The notes beneath the pieces were generated by a model. It had not been told where the DNA came from, searched no databases, and worked only from the letters and a program-made list of their open reading frames with translations. From Geodermatophilus sabuli (lineage in GTDB: Bacteria; Actinomycetota; Actinomycetes; Mycobacteriales; Geodermatophilaceae): 64,000 bases of DNA. Each line of letters begins with the position of its first letter. Positions within the stretch are counted from its first letter, which is position 1. Location: contig NZ_JAAGWF010000017.1 in the NCBI RefSeq assembly GCF_010686765.1, positions 62,001 through 126,000 of the forward strand, written 5' to 3'. The position numbers and the translations under genes are program-made. Shown here piece by piece: positions 3,566 through 31,234 of this stretch.

Positions 3566-4906
3566 TCACTGGACGGCCGCGTCCTCCAGCGGCCGGCCGC
3601 GCTGCTCGGGGAGCGCCCAGGAGGCGAGCGCGGCCAGCACGAAGAAGCTCGCGAAGGTGCCGAAGACGAGGCCGGTGCCGCCGGCGTCCAGCAACGGGGG
3701 CACGCACAGCGGCGCGGCGATCGAGGCGATCCGCCCGAAGCCCGCCGCGGCGCCCGACCCGGTGCCGCGCAGCGCGGTCGGGTAGACCTCGGGCGTCACC
3801 GCGTAGACCGCGCCCCACGCGCCCAGGTTGAAGAAGGACAGCACCATGCCGGTGACCAGGACGGCGGTGTCACCGTCGGCGAGGGCGAACAGCCCGGCCC
3901 CGAGTGCCGAGCCGACCAGGAACACCACCAGCGTCGGACGGCGCCCCCAGCGCTCGATGAGCACCGCGGCGGCGGCGTAGCCGGGTAGCTGGGCGAGGGT
4001 GATCACGAGGGTGAACCCGAACGAGCGGACGAGGGAGAACCCGGAGGCGACGAGCAGGGTCGGCAGCCAGATGAAGGCGCCGTAGTAGGCGAAGTTGATG
4101 CCGAACCAGACGGTCCACAGCGCCGCCGTGCGGCGCCGGGTGTCCGGCGCCCAGAGCGCGCCCGGCCCCGCCGGCGGCACGGGCCGGGACGGCGGCGACG
4201 GGACCGGCGCCACCCCGGCCGCTGACTCGAACCGGCGCACCGCTGCCTCCGCCTCGTCCACCCGGCCGCGCAGCTCGAGGAACCGGACCGACTCCGGCAG
4301 CCCCCGCCGCACGACGACGGCGTAGACCGCCGGGACCGCTCCCAGCGCCAGGGCCCAGCGCCAGCCGGCGTCGCTCCGGGGGACGACGAGGTAACCGATC
4401 AACGCCGCGGCCAGCCAGCCGACCGCCCAGAACGCCTCCAGCGCGACCACCACCCGGCCCCGCACCCGCGCCGGCGCGTACTCGCTGACCAGCGTGGAGG
4501 CGACCGGCAGCTCCGCACCCAGACCCAGGCCGATGAGGAACCGGAACACCAGCAGCGACGCCACCGACCAGGCCAGCGCCGCCGCGCCGGTGGCCACCCC
4601 GAACACCAGGAGCGTGAGCGCGAAGACCTGGCGCCGTCCGATCCGGTCGGCGAGCAGTCCCCCGAGGGTGGCACCGAGGGCCATCCCGACGAAGCCGATG
4701 GAGCCGATCCAGGACAGCTCCGTGGGGCTCAGCGACCACTGGACGGCGAGCGCGGCCATGACGAACGAGATGAGCCCGACGTCCATCGCGTCCAGGGCCC
4801 AGCCCACGCCGGAGCCGACGACCAGCCGGCCGTGCTCGCGGGTGAACGGCAGCCGGTCCAGGCGCTGGGCCCGGGTCGGCGAGGTCGTCGTCGCGTCGGT
4901 GGTCAT
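3566..4906 (-). CDS. MFS transporter, sugar/aromatic-acid porter type
   Basis: The 446-residue integral membrane protein shows twelve hydrophobic segments in two six-helix halves with a long cytoplasmic loop near residues 225-255. The MFS motif GGLLADRIGRR lies between helices 2 and 3, with its second-half counterpart around LIERWGRRP. LPESVRFLELRGR after helix 6 is typical of the sugar-porter, SV2 and aromatic-acid:H+ symporter subfamilies. It probably imports a small organic solute. The neighbours give no substrate clue. The upstream hairpin at 4920-4946 separates it from the lipoprotein gene. Confidence 0.88.
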   Translation of the reverse strand: MTTDATTTSPTRAQRLDRLPFTREHGRLVVGSGVGWALDAMDVGLISFVMAALAVQWSLSPTELSWIGSIGFVGMALGATLGGLLADRIGRRQVFALTLLVFGVATGAAALAWSVASLLVFRFLIGLGLGAELPVASTLVSEYAPARVRGRVVVALEAFWAVGWLAAALIGYLVVPRSDAGWRWALALGAVPAVYAVVVRRGLPESVRFLELRGRVDEAEAAVRRFESAAGVAPVPSPPSRPVPPAGPGALWAPDTRRRTAALWTVWFGINFAYYGAFIWLPTLLVASGFSLVRSFGFTLVITLAQLPGYAAAAVLIERWGRRPTLVVFLVGSALGAGLFALADGDTAVLVTGMVLSFFNLGAWGAVYAVTPEVYPTALRGTGSGAAAGFGRIASIAAPLCVPPLLDAGGTGLVFGTFASFFVLAALASWALPEQRGRPLEDAAVQ

Positions 4907-4919
4907 CGGGCGGCCCGTA

Positions 4920-4946
4920 CCCCGTGTGCGCTCGGCACACGCGGGG
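4920..4946 (-). terminator. hairpin after the small lipoprotein gene
   Basis: CCCCGTGTGC pairs with GCACACGCGGGG through a two-base bulge around a 5-base loop. It follows the stop of the minus-strand lipoprotein gene and precedes the MFS start. There is no T-run, which is normal for high-GC actinobacterial terminators. Confidence 0.5.
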
Positions 4947-4957
4947 CCACGGCCGGC

Positions 4958-5146
4958 TCAGCCGTCGCCGTCCTCGCCGTCGGTGGCGTCCTCCACCTCC
5001 CGCTCGACGTCGTCGACGCCCTGCTCCACGTCCTGCTGCACGTCGTCGTCGACCACGTCCCCGCCGCAGGCGGCAGTGGTCAGCGAGGCGACGGCGATCG
5101 CGAGCCCTGCGGCTGCGGTGCGCCAGCGACGGGTCGGTGCGGACAT
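4958..5146 (-). CDS. small secreted lipoprotein
   Basis: This 62-residue protein starts at ATG 5146, which has a good GGGAGG Shine-Dalgarno six bases upstream. A basic N-terminus and a hydrophobic stretch lead to a lipobox-like LTTAAC-GG, so the mature protein would begin at a lipidated cysteine near residue 27. The remaining 35 residues are almost all Asp, Glu, Val and Gln (DVVDDDVQQDVEQ pattern) and could form an acidic helix or a disordered linker at the outer membrane face. No family is recognised. It diverges from the SRPBCC operon. Confidence 0.7.
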   Translation of the reverse strand: MSAPTRRWRTAAAGLAIAVASLTTAACGGDVVDDDVQQDVEQGVDDVEREVEDATDGEDGDG

Positions 5147-5246
5147 GGTGCCTCCCCTGATCGACAGCCCGATCGGACCAGGGGAGTGCCCGCGGGCGGG
5201 AGGGTCCATGCACCCGCGGGACCCGGTACCGGTAGCCCGCCGTTAC

Positions 5247-5264
5247 GGTAACGTGCCGGTTACC
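5247..5264 (+). promoter_or_regulatory. inverted-repeat operator GGTAAC-N6-GTTACC
   Basis: A perfect 6+6 dyad with a 6-base spacer lies 20 bp before the GTG of the SRPBCC-ArsR-SRPBCC operon. A partial further copy, CCGTTAC, overlaps its left side. A dyad of the same form and spacing, GGTAAG-N6-CTTACC, overlaps the start of the second ArsR gene at 37800-37817. It is therefore probably the binding site of the ArsR protein encoded at 5701. Confidence 0.65.
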
Positions 5265-5284
5265 GAGTGGGGGAGGTGGCGGCC

Positions 5285-5704
5285 GTGCGTTCCTACGAGT
5301 CGACGGCATCGATCTCGGCGGGCGCCGACGCCGTCTGGCGCGTGCTGGTCGACGTCGGGAGCTGGCCGGCCTGGGACTCCGGCGTGCAGGCCGTCGACGG
5401 CGCGGTCGCGCCCGGCGCGACGCTGACGATCCGCTCGCGGGCAGCCCCCGGGCGCGCCTTCCCCGTGCGCGTGACGGCGGTCGAGCCGGCATCCCGGCTG
5501 GAGCTGACCGGTGGCCTGCCGCTGGGCCTGTTCCGTGGTGTGCGGACCTACACGCTCACCCCCGACGGCGCAGCGACGACGTTCCGCATGCGCGAGGAGT
5601 TCACCGGTCCGCTGCTCGGGCTCATCTGGCGCTCCATGCCGGACCTGCAGCCCTCGTTCGACACGTTCGCCAGGGGCCTCGAGGCCAGGGTCGAGGGCCG
5701 GTGA
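5285..5704 (+). CDS. SRPBCC family protein (polyketide cyclase/START-like)
   Basis: A 139-residue protein with the helix-grip SRPBCC fold: a short N-terminal strand, SAGADAVWRVLVDVGSW for the first helices, then alternating strands ending in an amphipathic C-terminal helix (SFDTFARGLEARV). Members bind hydrophobic ligands in a central cavity; no catalytic residues can be assigned. The GTG at 5285 was chosen over the one at 5267 because GGGAGG lies at proper distance before it. It is the first gene of a three-gene unit and overlaps the ArsR gene by 4 bases (GTGA). Confidence 0.82.
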   Translation: MRSYESTASISAGADAVWRVLVDVGSWPAWDSGVQAVDGAVAPGATLTIRSRAAPGRAFPVRVTAVEPASRLELTGGLPLGLFRGVRTYTLTPDGAATTFRMREEFTGPLLGLIWRSMPDLQPSFDTFARGLEARVEGR

Positions 5705-6030
5705 CCGGGGCCGCCGGCGCGCCCGCCGGGGACCCGTTCGAGGCGCTGGGGGACCCGAACCGGCGGCAGATCCTCAGCCTCCTCGGAGCGGGCGACCGAT
5801 CGGTGGCCGAGCTGGCCCGCGAGCTGCCCATCAGCCGGCCCGCGGTGTCGCGGCACCTGCGGCTGCTCAAGGACGCCGGGCTGGTCGCCGAGGAGCCGCG
5901 CGGCACCCGCCGGATCTACCGACTGCAGGAGCAGGGGCTCGAAGCGGTCCGGCGCTACCTCGAGCAGGTCTGGGGGGAGGCCGCCGCCCGGTTCCAGCGC
6001 ACCGCCGAGGAGACCGGCCGTCGGCCGTGA
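5701..6030 (+). CDS. ArsR-family winged-helix repressor
   Basis: This 109-residue regulator has the classical ArsR core: FEALGDPNRRQILSLL opens the first helices, LPISRPAVSRHLRLLKDAG forms the recognition helix region, and GTRRIYRL the wing. No metal-binding cysteine pair is present, so it is not a metal sensor of the ArsR/SmtB kind; it belongs to the SRPBCC-associated group. It overlaps both neighbours by four bases. The dyad at 5247-5264 is the likely operator, implying autoregulation. Confidence 0.9.
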   Translation: MTGAAGAPAGDPFEALGDPNRRQILSLLGAGDRSVAELARELPISRPAVSRHLRLLKDAGLVAEEPRGTRRIYRLQEQGLEAVRRYLEQVWGEAAARFQRTAEETGRRP

Positions 6031-27449: not shown

Positions 27450-29780
27450 GTGGACGAGGACGGACGGCCGGTGACCCCCCAGCGGGGCCGCGTCGTCGTG
27501 CTGCTCCTGACGATCGGCCTGTCGCTGGTCTTCGCCACGGGCGTGGTCGCCCGTCCGGCGGGGGCGAGCTGGGACAGGACCTACGACGTCGTCCTCTTCA
27601 ACCTGCCCTACCTGGCCGCGGCCGGCGGGTGCTTCGCGGCCGCGGTCCGGGTGCGGAGGGAGCGGATCGCCTGGGTCGGCCTCGGCGCCGCGCTGACGGT
27701 GAGCGCGGTGGGCAACGCGCTGCGGGTGCTCGCCGCCGGGCTCCAGGGGAACGGACCGTCGTCCCCCCTGGCCGACGCGGTCTCCCTGGCCGGCTACCTC
27801 CTCCTCTACGTGCACGTCGTGGGACTGATCCGCGCCCGGGTGCCCCGGTTCCACCCCAGCATGTGGCTGGACGGGATCGTCGGTGCCTTCGGCACCCTGG
27901 CCGCCGGGGTGGCCTTCGTGCTCGGGCCCTACCTCTACCCGGACCCCGGCCAGAAGGCGGTCGCGGCGATCGAGCTGGTGGGGCCGACGACGTCGGTCAT
28001 GCTGCTCGCCGTCCTCGTGGCCGTCGGGTCCATCCTCGGCGTGCGCCTCGACCGCACCCTGGTGACGGTGACCCTGGGGCTGTGCTGCATGTGCGCCTCG
28101 GACTTCGCCCTCTTCGCCCTCAAGGTCCAGCACCGGTACGTCGACGGGGGGCCGCTGGAGCTCGGCTGGCTGGCGTGCATCGTCCTGGCGGCTGCCGCCG
28201 CGACCGGCGCGCACGACCGTCCCGCACCGGTCGACCGTGGCGGCGGCTCGCGCATCGGCTGGCGCCTGCTCGCCGTGCCGCTGGCCTGCATCGTGGCCAG
28301 CCTCTTCGTCCTCGGGTCCGGCTGGACCCATCCGATGCCCCCGGTCTCCGCCTGGCTGGCGATCGCCTGCGTACTGGCCGGCATCGCCCGCATCGCCGTG
28401 ACCTTCCACGAGGTCCGTGGCTTCAACCAGGTCAAGCAGGAGGCCCGGACCGACGAGCTCACCGGCCTGGCCAACCGCCGCGCGCTGCTGGAACGGGCGC
28501 AGCGGATCGTCACCTCCGCCACCACCGGCCGGCCCGCTGCCCTGCTCCTGCTGGACCTGGACGGGTTCAAGGAGGTCAACGACAGCCTCGGCCATGCCGC
28601 CGGCGACGACCTGCTGCGCCAGGTGGGGCCGCGGCTGCGGGAGGCGCTGCGCGCCGAGGACGTGCTCGCCCGGCTCGGCGGCGACGAGTTCGCCGTCCTG
28701 CTGCCGGCCGCGGACGTGGCCGAGGCGCAGGTCCTCGCCGAGCGGCTGCGCGGGCAGTTGCTGCAGCCGTTCACGGTGGCGGGGGTCCGGCTGCACGTGG
28801 GGGTCAGCGTCGGTGTCGCGACCACCCCGGCGCCGGCGGGCACCGTGCAGGAGCTGCTGCACTGCGCGGACGTCGCGATGTACACCGCGAAGAGCACGCG
28901 GACCGGCGTGCACGTCTACGTCCCCGATCCCGTGACGGGGACGGCCGGGGGTGACCGGCTGCGCACCATGGAGGAGCTGCGGACCGCCCTCACCGACGGC
29001 GAGCTCGTGGTCTTCCTGCAGCCGCAGCTGGACCTGCGCAACGGCGACGTCGTCGGCGCCGAGGCCCTCGTGCGCTGGAACCACCCCACCCGGGGACTGC
29101 TCAGCCCGGCCGACCTGCTGCCCGCGGCCGAGCAGGCCGGGCTGCTGCGGCCGCTCACCGACACGGTGCTCGAGCTGGCGCTCGCGGCAGCCGGCCGCTG
29201 GTGGACCGACCACGAGGTGCCGGTCTCGGTGAACCTCTCGGCCGCCAACGTCACCGACCTGGACCTGCCGGACAAGGTCGCGTCCGCGTTGCGCAGGCAC
29301 GGGCTGCCGGCGCGGGCACTGACGCTGGAGCTGGTCGAGGACACCCTGATGACCGATCCGGAGCGGGGTCGTGCGGTGCTCAGCGACCTGCGCCGGCTCG
29401 GCGTCCGCACGTCGATCGACGACTACGGGACGGGGTACAGCTCGCTGGCCTACCTGCGGCACCTGCCCGCTGACGAGCTCAAGCTGGACCGGAGCCTGAC
29501 GGCGGACGTCGACCGCGACCCCCGGGCCGCGGCCATCGTCCAGCACACCGTCGCCCTCGCGCACCATCTGGGCCTGAGCCTGGTGGCCGAGGGCGTGGAG
29601 ACCGTCGCGACGAGCGTCACCCTCGCGCGGCTCGGGTGCGACGTCGCCCAGGGCTACGCGATCGCCCGTCCCATGCCCGTCGACGACTTCCTGGGGTGGC
29701 TCGTCGCCTCCGAGTCCGCCCTGCTCGACGAGGTCCTGGTCCCCCTGCTCAGCCAGGGCGGTGGGCCGGGAGTGAGATGA
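27450..29780 (+). CDS. membrane-bound diguanylate cyclase/phosphodiesterase (GGDEF-EAL)
   Basis: The 776-residue protein has eight or more membrane helices in residues 14-318, a GGDEF domain at about 330-490 and an EAL domain at about 505-755. GGDEF is intact (410-414) with an inhibitory I-site RAED five residues before it. The EAL part keeps EAL (538-540), the NLS.AN motif, ELVED, DDYGTGYSSL, KLD and AEGVET, so the known metal and catalytic residues appear complete. It could both make and degrade cyclic di-GMP. The membrane domain resembles no named sensor I recognise. It stands alone, closed by a hairpin. Confidence 0.92.
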   Translation: MDEDGRPVTPQRGRVVVLLLTIGLSLVFATGVVARPAGASWDRTYDVVLFNLPYLAAAGGCFAAAVRVRRERIAWVGLGAALTVSAVGNALRVLAAGLQGNGPSSPLADAVSLAGYLLLYVHVVGLIRARVPRFHPSMWLDGIVGAFGTLAAGVAFVLGPYLYPDPGQKAVAAIELVGPTTSVMLLAVLVAVGSILGVRLDRTLVTVTLGLCCMCASDFALFALKVQHRYVDGGPLELGWLACIVLAAAAATGAHDRPAPVDRGGGSRIGWRLLAVPLACIVASLFVLGSGWTHPMPPVSAWLAIACVLAGIARIAVTFHEVRGFNQVKQEARTDELTGLANRRALLERAQRIVTSATTGRPAALLLLDLDGFKEVNDSLGHAAGDDLLRQVGPRLREALRAEDVLARLGGDEFAVLLPAADVAEAQVLAERLRGQLLQPFTVAGVRLHVGVSVGVATTPAPAGTVQELLHCADVAMYTAKSTRTGVHVYVPDPVTGTAGGDRLRTMEELRTALTDGELVVFLQPQLDLRNGDVVGAEALVRWNHPTRGLLSPADLLPAAEQAGLLRPLTDTVLELALAAAGRWWTDHEVPVSVNLSAANVTDLDLPDKVASALRRHGLPARALTLELVEDTLMTDPERGRAVLSDLRRLGVRTSIDDYGTGYSSLAYLRHLPADELKLDRSLTADVDRDPRAAAIVQHTVALAHHLGLSLVAEGVETVATSVTLARLGCDVAQGYAIARPMPVDDFLGWLVASESALLDEVLVPLLSQGGGPGVR

Positions 29781-29781
29781 C

Positions 29782-29812
29782 GCGGAGCGCGTGTCCCACC
29801 ACTGCGCTCCGC
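29782..29812 (+). terminator. hairpin after the GGDEF-EAL gene
   Basis: GCGGAGCGC pairs perfectly with GCGCTCCGC around a 13-base loop, starting 2 bp after the stop. It separates this gene from the SpeD-like operon. Confidence 0.6.
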
Positions 29813-29838: not shown

Positions 29839-30267
29839 ATGTCACCTCCGCCCTCCAGTGACCTGCTCCGACCCCGGCTGCTGAGGAGCGCCGAGCACCC
29901 GCCGCACCGGAGGGAACCCGACGACTGGCACGACCTCGCGCCCGACATCGTCCGTCAGCGGCTGGTCATCGAGGGGATCCCCGCACGGCCCATCGGCGAC
30001 GAGCAGATCCGGCACTACCTGTCGGCGCTGTCCCGCGAGGTCGACATGGTGCAGCTGCTCGAGCCGGTGACGCACCGCTCCGACCTGTACGGCTGGGCCG
30101 GCTGGATCCACTGGGAGACCTCCGGAGCGCACTTCTACGCCTGGGAGCAGCCGCGGCTGTTCTTCTCGGTGGACATGTACACGTGCAAGGCCTTCGACGT
30201 GGCCACCGCCGTGTCGTTCACCCGCGCGTTCCTCGACGCGGGCACCGTCGTCGCGAAGTCGTTCTGA
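29839..30267 (+). CDS. SpeD-like protein (S-adenosylmethionine decarboxylase fold), probable pyruvoyl enzyme
   Basis: The 142-residue protein matches prokaryotic AdoMet decarboxylase in its C-terminal half: ETSGAHFYAWEQP corresponds to the SESH..H.WPE processing region, and FFSVDMYTCKAFD to the AAVDVFTCG segment with the active-site Cys. Aligned by eye, the self-cleaving Ser is kept, but the His that drives processing and catalysis in Thermotoga SpeD is Tyr, with a His two residues earlier. Such homologues include arginine and ornithine decarboxylases. ATG 29839 has GGGAGGG. It is one base from the next gene. Confidence 0.75.
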   Translation: MSPPPSSDLLRPRLLRSAEHPPHRREPDDWHDLAPDIVRQRLVIEGIPARPIGDEQIRHYLSALSREVDMVQLLEPVTHRSDLYGWAGWIHWETSGAHFYAWEQPRLFFSVDMYTCKAFDVATAVSFTRAFLDAGTVVAKSF

Positions 30268-30268
30268 G

Positions 30269-31087
30269 ATGCCGCTGCGTCTGCTCATCGCGCACTCCCC
30301 GACCGAGCGGGCGGCCGCGCGCGAGGTCGAGGCGCGGGTGTTCCTGCAGGCCTTCGGCAACACACCGGAGGTCATGGAGGAGGAGTACGGCCCCTACGGC
30401 GACCGGTCGCGCTTCGTCGTCGTGATCGACGACGCGAGCGGTTCGGCGCTGGGCGCCGCCCGGCTCATCCTCCCGGACGGCACCGGCATGGTGAAGACGC
30501 TGGCCGACGTGGCCGGCGAGCCCTGGCGGCTCTCCGTGCCCGACAGCCTCCGAGCGGCGGATCTGGCCGGGCGGCCGGTGTGGGACGTGGCGAGCCTGGC
30601 CGTCGACCGGCGGTACCGCAGCGGCGCCGCCGGGGCCGAGGTCACCCTCGCCCTGTGCCACGGCCTCTTCCAGTACTCGCGGCTGTGCGGCGCCGACGGC
30701 CTGGTCACCATCCTGGACGACCGCGTCCTCCGGCTGCTGCGGGCGATGGGCGTGCCGTGGGCCGCGATGGCGGGCGCCACGTCCCGGGAGTACCTGGGCT
30801 CGCCCGCGAGCACGCCCTGCATCTGCCTCGTCGACGCCATCGGGGAGAGCATCCGTGCGACCCGGCCCGACCTGGCGCCGGCCGTGGTCGAGGGTGTCTT
30901 CCGCTCGATCGCCCTGGACCCGGCCGACCTGTTCCCCGGCCGCGGTGGCTCCCTGCCCGAGGCAGCCGTGAGCAGGCAGCCGGCCCGGACGGCCGCGCCG
31001 CGGCGGGACACGTCGGGATGGCGGCCCCCCACGCACCGGCGTCCGGAGGTCGCCGTCAGCTCACCCGGCACCGCTGCCGGCTCCTGA
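30269..31087 (+). CDS. GNAT-fold acyltransferase of the LuxI / N-acyl-amino-acid synthase (FeeM) kind
   Basis: A 272-residue protein. The N-terminal 200 residues look like autoinducer synthase or FeeM: VEARVFLQAF, EEYGPYGDRSRFVVVID, then SALGAARLILPDG, a long connecting segment, and VWDVASLAVDRRYR as in the W-E-x-SR-x-A-V strand of LuxI. The last 60 residues are Pro/Arg-rich and probably disordered. It would transfer an acyl group to an amine or amino acid. With the SpeD-like protein 1 bp upstream, the amine may be that enzyme's product. This pairing is an inference. Confidence 0.7.
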   Translation: MPLRLLIAHSPTERAAAREVEARVFLQAFGNTPEVMEEEYGPYGDRSRFVVVIDDASGSALGAARLILPDGTGMVKTLADVAGEPWRLSVPDSLRAADLAGRPVWDVASLAVDRRYRSGAAGAEVTLALCHGLFQYSRLCGADGLVTILDDRVLRLLRAMGVPWAAMAGATSREYLGSPASTPCICLVDAIGESIRATRPDLAPAVVEGVFRSIALDPADLFPGRGGSLPEAAVSRQPARTAAPRRDTSGWRPPTHRRPEVAVSSPGTAAGS

Positions 31088-31114
31088 GCTCGGCCACCCC
31101 ACCCCCGTCGACGA

Positions 31115-31150
31115 CGAAGCGGCTCCCTCCCGGAGGAGGAGGCCGCTTCG
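31115..31150. terminator. bidirectional hairpin between the acyltransferase gene and tRNA-Lys
   Basis: CGAAGCGGCTCC faces GGAGGCCGCTTCG with one mismatch/bulge and a loop of about 11 bases. It can end the plus-strand operon and the minus-strand tRNA transcript. Confidence 0.6.
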
Positions 31151-31158
31151 CCGTGCCG

Positions 31159-31234
<76 letters not shown>

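Follow-up and report, generated by a model that had tools for sequence, protein, structure and literature searches.

The class 1b AdoMet decarboxylase SpeD, represented by T. maritima TM0655 (PDB 1tlu/1vr7), is among the closest described counterparts of the first protein of the locus analysed here (P1), and S63, H68, and C83 have been named as the SpeD processing and catalytic residues (PMC10407285, section 7). The same paper describes SpeDC and SpeDA, pyruvoyl-dependent ornithine and arginine decarboxylases that are neofunctionalised SpeD relatives spread by transfer, gives four residues (Gln, Thr, Phe, and Tyr) as diagnostic of the ornithine type (SpeDC), and covers polyamine gene clusters (Li et al., 2023; PMC10407285); its text contains no match for acyltransferase or autoinducer. 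For the second protein (P2), the nearest counterparts are FeeM, an N-acyl amino acid synthase (PDB 2g0b), and the LuxI-type AHL synthases LasI, BjaI, RpaI, and TofI. In CPR genomes, 18 homologues of LuxI with a sensory kinase beside them have been read as candidate AHL systems, with Trp35 conserved or aromatic (PMC7567580); the words decarboxylase and GGDEF are absent from that paper's main text, and two papers dealing with AHL or LuxI in actinobacteria or Gram-positives (PMC13136126, PMC5539150) give no match for the set terms. Among open-licence PMC papers, none was found that describes a pairing of P1 and P2.

In the window, the whole 64,000-nucleotide stretch of DNA that was analysed, which comes from an assembly of 122 contigs, P1 and P2 are encoded by consecutive genes, and the GGDEF-EAL gene located 5' of P1 appears to be part of the same unit. 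The fact that the pair co-travels across distant bacteria and often adjoins a receptor-like membrane gene suggests an undescribed chemical signalling system. The features of the locus are the following.

27450-29780, plus strand: sensor gene, 776 aa; multi-TM region followed by GGDEF and EAL domains; proposed receptor
about 27450-28427, plus strand: sensor region, multi-TM; no Pfam match
about 28446-28901, plus strand: GGDEF domain (Pfam, 144 bits)
about 28971-29672, plus strand: EAL domain (Pfam, 238 bits)
29782-29812, plus strand: hairpin between the sensor gene and P1; 9-bp perfect stem (29782-29790/29804-29812), 13-nt loop
29839-30267, plus strand: P1, 142 aa; SpeD-fold, putative pyruvoyl-dependent decarboxylase
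30269-31087, plus strand: P2, 272 aa; FeeM/LuxI-like GNAT-fold, putative acyltransferase
31111-31154, plus strand: long hairpin 3' of P2; 20-nt stem (31111-31130/31135-31154), 85% complementarity
31159-31234, minus strand: tRNA-Lys, 3' of the pair

An earlier reading of the same DNA, made from the letters alone and referred to here as the sequence-only reading, had placed two open reading frames at 29839-31087, one base apart and bounded by hairpins on both sides. These features stand: the TGA stop of P1 (30265-30267) and the ATG start of P2 (30269) leave a single base between them, and the pair is enclosed by the perfect 5' stem and the longer, imperfect 3' stem listed above. A T-tailed terminator was sought around these hairpins and not found; the hairpin at 31111-31154 is a possible transcript end. 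The sensor gene ends 58 nt before the start of P1, the exact codon of which is uncertain, since the reading frame is open from a GTG at 29791 and the purine run GGGAGGG ends just 2 nt 5' of the ATG at 29839.

Folds and conserved residues of P1 and P2

P1 scores 31.9 bits against the Pfam AdoMet_dc family (PF02675), above the cut-off of 25, and its AlphaFold2 model, built with 28 sequences and showing pLDDT block means of 94-98 over the core, finds its best structural match in T. maritima SpeD (Z 14.2, rmsd 2.4, 106 aligned residues). The AdoMet-decarboxylase fold that had been proposed for P1 is borne out by both results, and it is from these that the fold is taken, because PDB sequence searches with P1 or A1 returned chance-level matches alone. 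A PF02675 search of P1's own genome missed P1, even though hmmscan puts the protein over the cut-off, and absence in such searches is therefore weak evidence for the P1 branch.

Seven residues (His91, Glu93, Ser95, His98, Tyr100, Asp112, and Cys116) are invariant in all 81 sequences. Two alignments, one of them with a hhalign score that is not significant, place Ser95 on the pyruvoyl-forming serine S63 and Tyr100 on H68, whereas one profile comparison favours another register, in which Ser95 does not correspond to the SpeD serine and that serine is lost. The former register is preferred, and is supported by four relatives (L084-L087) that keep exactly the canonical spacing from S to C, with Tyr at the H68 position. 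In this preferred register, the putative equivalent of the pyruvoyl-forming S63 (Ser95) and that of the catalytic C83 (Cys116) are retained in 81 of 81 sequences, and the processing histidine H68 is replaced by Tyr100, again in 81 of 81. P1 resembles SpeD in its fold, its Pfam family, and, if that register holds, its Ser63 and Cys83 equivalents, but differs from it in the tyrosine at His68, in having TS where SpeD has ES at the cleavage site, in a WPE motif that is not kept, and in having an acyltransferase gene as its neighbour.

In a tree of 55 SpeD-family proteins, a 100/99 branch parts P1 and its relatives from canonical SpeD, with the SpeDC-like proteins falling on the side of P1 and several long branches making the details unsure. 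P1 and the SpeDC-like proteins also have in common ETS and a CK.F (C-K..F-type) stretch, which makes a basic amino acid a sensible guess, but only a guess, for the substrate of P1. Unlike SpeDC, P1 misses His68 and carries only Thr of the four diagnostic residues, the positions of which were inferred from the SpeDC-like proteins L091 and L133. If the suggested signalling system is real, P1 would constitute a further neofunctionalised branch of the SpeD fold, and one without the processing histidine. Identity to the P1 of the window is 60-75% in 27 diverse homologues.

By sequence, P2 appears only weakly akin to the described synthase families, scoring just below the cut-off for Pfam Autoind_synth (23.7 bits, cut-off 24) and well below that for Pfam FeeM (16.3 bits, cut-off 27). 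Its model (35 sequences; mean pLDDT 91, with the last ~50 residues forming a lower-confidence tail) has FeeM as its top structural match in the PDB (Z 17.2, rmsd 2.6, 175 aligned residues, 12% identity), tied within 1 by Z with an ordinary GNAT (Z 16.4, 142 aligned); BjaI, LasI, RpaI, and TofI yield Z scores of 14.6 to 15.7, with LasI and BjaI at 15.4-15.7. In a Foldseek search with the same model, ranks 1 to 11 are all occupied by FeeM and LuxI-type chains, FeeM being first. Structure prediction thus puts P2 with FeeM, the LuxI-type synthases, and other GNATs, in agreement with the LuxI/FeeM-like GNAT fold that the sequence-only reading had assigned to it.

LuxI AHL synthases share a set of conserved residues (R, F, W, D, D, R ... 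E, R). P2 retains F25 and R65, but in the LasI alignment (E 0.49) W is replaced by N31 and D by G41, and ungapped extension gives E21 in place of R. The identification of P2 as an AHL synthase was rejected, because most signature residues are replaced despite the common fold. Like LuxI-type synthases, P2 has a receptor-like gene beside it, but this neighbour encodes a membrane GGDEF-EAL protein or a kinase, not LuxR, and P2 further differs from FeeM in that its gene is coupled to one for a decarboxylase-fold protein and has receptor-like genes linked to it. Thirty P2 sequences from outside the Geodermatophilaceae are 18-38% identical to the P2 of the window, and the P2 genes of Saccharibacteria may in part be the CPR LuxI homologues described in PMC7567580. 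Judged from their sequences, neither P1 nor P2 fits a characterised family.

Conservation and spread of the pair

GTDB species genomes were scanned for P1 relatives, and the best 80 of 119 loci were examined. These 80 loci belong to the Actinomycetota, Saccharibacteria, Bdellovibrionota, Planctomycetota, and other groups, with the nearest relatives in Blastococcus and Modestobacter. A P2 relative lies downstream on the same strand in 72 of them (71 detected by phmmer, plus L038 as a weak profile match, E 0.0033), so that the pair, initially noticed in a single genome, is kept far beyond close relatives. The two genes are spaced by -7 to +7 nt in 66 of these 72 pair loci, a count that took the start nearest to the P1 stop and that favours tight spacing by this choice. 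Furthermore, among 96 genomes of the window's family, P1 is found in 24 and P2 in 25, and the 24 genomes common to both have the genes as neighbours. Neither of the two outcomes that the sequence-only reading had set as refuting it, a pair confined to close relatives and a P2 outside the LuxI/FeeM fold, was observed. That P1 and P2 form a functional unit is close to certain.

The lone P2 relative (G315, L141:4148-5176) has neither P1 nor a sensor match within 9 kb, and the P2 matches in two other genomes of the family (G378 and G382) contain an in-frame TGA inside the matched stretch. In G329 (L089, about 4150-5712), the matches to P1 and P2 are broken across frames next to a partial match to the sensor, in what is apparently a module copy undergoing decay within the Geodermatophilaceae.

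The distribution of P1 is patchy, which fits gain and loss. Within the window's genus, P1 is present in the window genome alone (1 of 21), and within its phylum in 4 of 296 genomes, a count that includes G000 and a single distant match. In the phylum of a Saccharibacteria genome the count is 9 of 332 (four weak matches, three intermediate, and two close, one of the close ones being that genome's own), and in that of a Micavibrio genome 3 of 349 (itself and two weak matches). The P1 tree suggests horizontal transfer between Cryobacterium and Saccharibacteria, since L063 from Cryobacterium groups with L033 from Saccharibacteria at 100/94. A viral or phage origin was rejected, as viral contigs gave no confirmed relative and phage records none. 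A plasmid location was also discarded: only three distant relatives lie on plasmids, the one in Acaryochloris adjoining an ordinary tandem GNAT and the other two having no FeeM-like neighbour among the genes listed. PADLOC gave no match, and assignment to a defence system was likewise set aside.

The sensor gene and its linkage to the pair

The N-terminal part of the window's sensor protein, in which a crude count gives about 10 hydrophobic segments, is followed by domains where the RLGGDEF, RxxD, EAL, DDFGTG-type, and EGVE motifs are present, those of GGDEF, RxxD, and EAL looking intact. Among the best 80 of 119 loci, 67 of the 72 pair loci are testable for such a neighbour, the other five (L025, L032, L037, L042, and L055) being truncated beside the pair. 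In 50 of these 67 loci the pair is flanked by a GGDEF-EAL protein or by a multi-TM histidine kinase, and thus displays a trait of quorum-sensing type, the linkage of a receptor-like gene to synthase genes. The sequence-only reading had suggested that the pair might make an unusual signal; the adjoining receptor-like genes strengthen this suggestion, to which they come as an addition, the sensor gene having gone unnoticed there.

The GGDEF-EAL gene adjoins the pair in 42 of the 67 loci and does so in several gene orders. It lies upstream in the same direction in all 21 Geodermatophilaceae loci with upstream sequence, downstream and convergent in 18 others, upstream and divergent in L027 and L056, and downstream in the same direction in L078. 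The multi-TM histidine kinase lies directly downstream of the pair in 8 of the 67, comprising a Mycolicibacterium locus (L051) and seven Saccharibacteria-type loci, all seven of which have a response regulator encoded upstream on the opposite strand. Simple patterns recover the GGDEF motif and the EAL motif in 43 of 45 sensor rows each, and crude hydropathy counts 5 to 11 TM segments in 43 of 45, with 0 in the truncated L045 and in L056. Outside the best 80 of 119 loci, the sensor of L139 has P1 on one side and a weak P2 match (E 2e-9) on the other; the convergent gene order appears again in L138, and P1, P2, and the kinase occur together in L128, which belongs to the same phylum as the Saccharibacteria genome. 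Adjacency in 21 of 46 testable loci outside the Geodermatophilaceae is far beyond chance under a calculation that assumes 4500 genes and ignores relatedness. A membrane receptor is likely to belong to the pair unit in many lineages.

Neither a GGDEF-EAL gene nor a matching kinase adjoins the pair in 17 of the 67 testable loci, which are of Actinoplanes type or from Cryobacterium. The scan was queried with a single GGDEF-EAL profile and a single kinase from Saccharibacteria, which other receptor types would escape, and no common receptor was seen among the ORFs listed for 13 of the 17. In one of the 17 (L061), a response-regulator match lies about 0.9 kb beyond the pair. In another, a Cryobacterium ORF directly upstream of the pair (L073:5166-6065) is response-regulator-like by eye and was not counted as a receptor; both loci were kept among the 17.

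Sensor regions with at least 63% identity to the N-terminal one of the window occur at 23 places in 22 of the 96 family genomes, and these 22 are all among the 24 with P1; paralogues at most 59% identical are widespread in family genomes without the pair. One of the 24 (G297) has the pair without a sensor at least 63% identical, and in G356 the sensor and P1 are located close to the ends of two contigs. The sensor domain family is wider than the module and has no Pfam name: tandem copies of multi-TM sensor GGDEF-EAL proteins of the same type occur in L146 and L151, in genomes without a P1 match.

A sensor tree was built on a chosen subset comprising 15 unlinked domains, all from the Geodermatophilaceae, and 18 linked ones (the window, 11 other Geodermatophilaceae, and 6 more from elsewhere). 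Its linked rows fall into two separate groups, each supported at 100/100: a clade of the 12 from the Geodermatophilaceae and a group of the 6 from other actinobacteria, with unlinked paralogues nearer to the Geodermatophilaceae clade. Because the linked sensors form these two separate groups, linkage to this GGDEF-EAL sensor type was probably gained, or kept, in two lineages. The linked label needs two changes on the tree, and 0 of 200 bootstrap trees need only one; the well-supported branches alone are compatible with a single origin.

A proposed signalling module and its alternatives

The best single explanation, to which we give an even chance, is that the pair and the receptor constitute a module for the synthesis and reception of an acylated-amine signal. 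From the predicted folds, the conserved adjacency, the co-occurrence, and the linkage to receptor genes, all of which were computed, we infer self-processing and decarboxylation by P1, acylation by P2, diffusion of the product, and its sensing. P1 would self-cleave at Ser95 to yield a pyruvoyl enzyme and would decarboxylate an amino acid, either basic or AdoMet-like, to an amine, onto which P2 would transfer a fatty acyl group from acyl-ACP or acyl-CoA. The resulting N-acyl amine would reach the membrane, where the multi-TM domain of the neighbouring GGDEF-EAL protein or, in Saccharibacteria and a Mycolicibacterium, the multi-TM histidine kinase would sense it, and sensing would change the c-di-GMP or phosphorelay output. 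Counted for the module are the pairing in 72 of 80 loci, the tight spacing, the 24 shared genomes, the sensor linkage with its two separate groups of linked sensors, the gene order of L139, FeeM as top match, and the amidinotransferase gene beside P1 in L075; counted against it are the 17 of 67 loci without a receptor, the 8 of 80 without P2, Tyr100, the alternative register of Ser95, the tie between FeeM and an ordinary GNAT, and genomes G315 and G297.

Small-molecule signalling in actinobacteria is known mainly for gamma-butyrolactones, and the known hosts of Saccharibacteria include actinobacteria, on which some Saccharibacteria live. If true, the module would bring new signal chemistry and a new type of synthase to bacterial communication, a signal tied directly to c-di-GMP in the phylum of the actinobacteria, and a testable common signal between actinobacteria and Saccharibacteria. 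A more specific version, which we put forward tentatively and regard as unlikely in its entirety, is that of an undescribed signal class. Its signal would be an N-acylated decarboxylated amino acid that a two-enzyme synthase produces, the membrane receptors reading it would have outputs that can be exchanged, c-di-GMP in actinobacteria and phosphorelay in Saccharibacteria, and horizontal transfer would account for its presence in both groups.

The strongest of the alternatives, though unlikely in its own right, is that the pair makes an N-acyl amine as a membrane lipid, a surfactant, or an antibiotic rather than as a signal, the neighbouring receptors regulating this product or reflecting drift in gene order. 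Such a role would suit both the top structural match of P2, given that FeeM makes N-acyl amino acids, and the 17 testable pair loci at which no such receptor adjoins. It sits less well with the finding that receptor-like genes of two output types adjoin the pair in 50 of 67 loci and that linked sensors fall into two separate groups, and the 30 GGDEF matches found in all in G000 leave the probability of chance adjacency low under a simple model.

Less probable still, and decidedly doubtful, is that P1 is not a decarboxylase at all, having lost pyruvoyl formation to become a partner subunit of P2 or a different Ser/His/Cys catalyst acting for it. The invariance of Ser95 and Cys116 in 81 of 81 sequences argues against this, as does the occurrence of P1 without P2 beside other enzyme genes, whereas the tyrosine at the His68 position, which extends from the 81 sequences to distant relatives, and the alternative register in one profile comparison argue for it; the far stronger conservation of P1 (60-75% identity) than of P2 outside the Geodermatophilaceae (18-38%) could also suit a scaffold or an unusual active site. 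That P1 is still an AdoMet decarboxylase, with P2 using decarboxylated AdoMet to form an acylated dcAdoMet-derived amine or thioether, is very improbable: the Pfam AdoMet_dc score, the SpeD fold match, and the use of AdoMet by the LuxI relatives of P2 are in its favour, but P1 falls outside the canonical SpeD group (100/99 branch), P1 does not retain, at the same place, the Pro-Glu that follows Trp70 in SpeD, and the window's genome gave no PF02675 match, in a search that also missed P1.

The signalling module assigns to P1 the production of an amine, and the gene contexts in which P1 occurs without P2 could have the same thread in common, P1 supplying an amine that the product of a neighbouring gene modifies. 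Among the best 80 of 119 loci there are 8 without P2, and only L077 among these has a kinase nearby. In a Planctomycetaceae locus (L075:6001-7559), the P1-family gene is followed by an arginine:glycine-type amidinotransferase (E 1.6e-79 to PDB 1jdx), an adjacency that fits the making of an amine by P1, and then by a permease-like gene (by eye), in a set that is possibly a guanidino-compound pathway. In Micavibrio (L031:5062-8647) and Bdellovibrionales (L044:5944-8585), the genes next to the P1-family gene encode an unassigned protein and an aminotransferase-like one, the latter scored by Pfam in L031 only, where a membrane protein (by eye) also precedes the P1-family gene. A nicotianamine-synthase-like enzyme had been suspected in the unassigned protein 3' of P1, which gave no Pfam match in either locus and, in L044, no PDB match. 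More distant P1 relatives with no P2 beside them are found in L129-L131, and in L129 (3384-5766), from the Saccharibacteria phylum, the distant P1 lies directly before genes that by eye resemble those for subunits of a 2-oxoacid:ferredoxin oxidoreductase.
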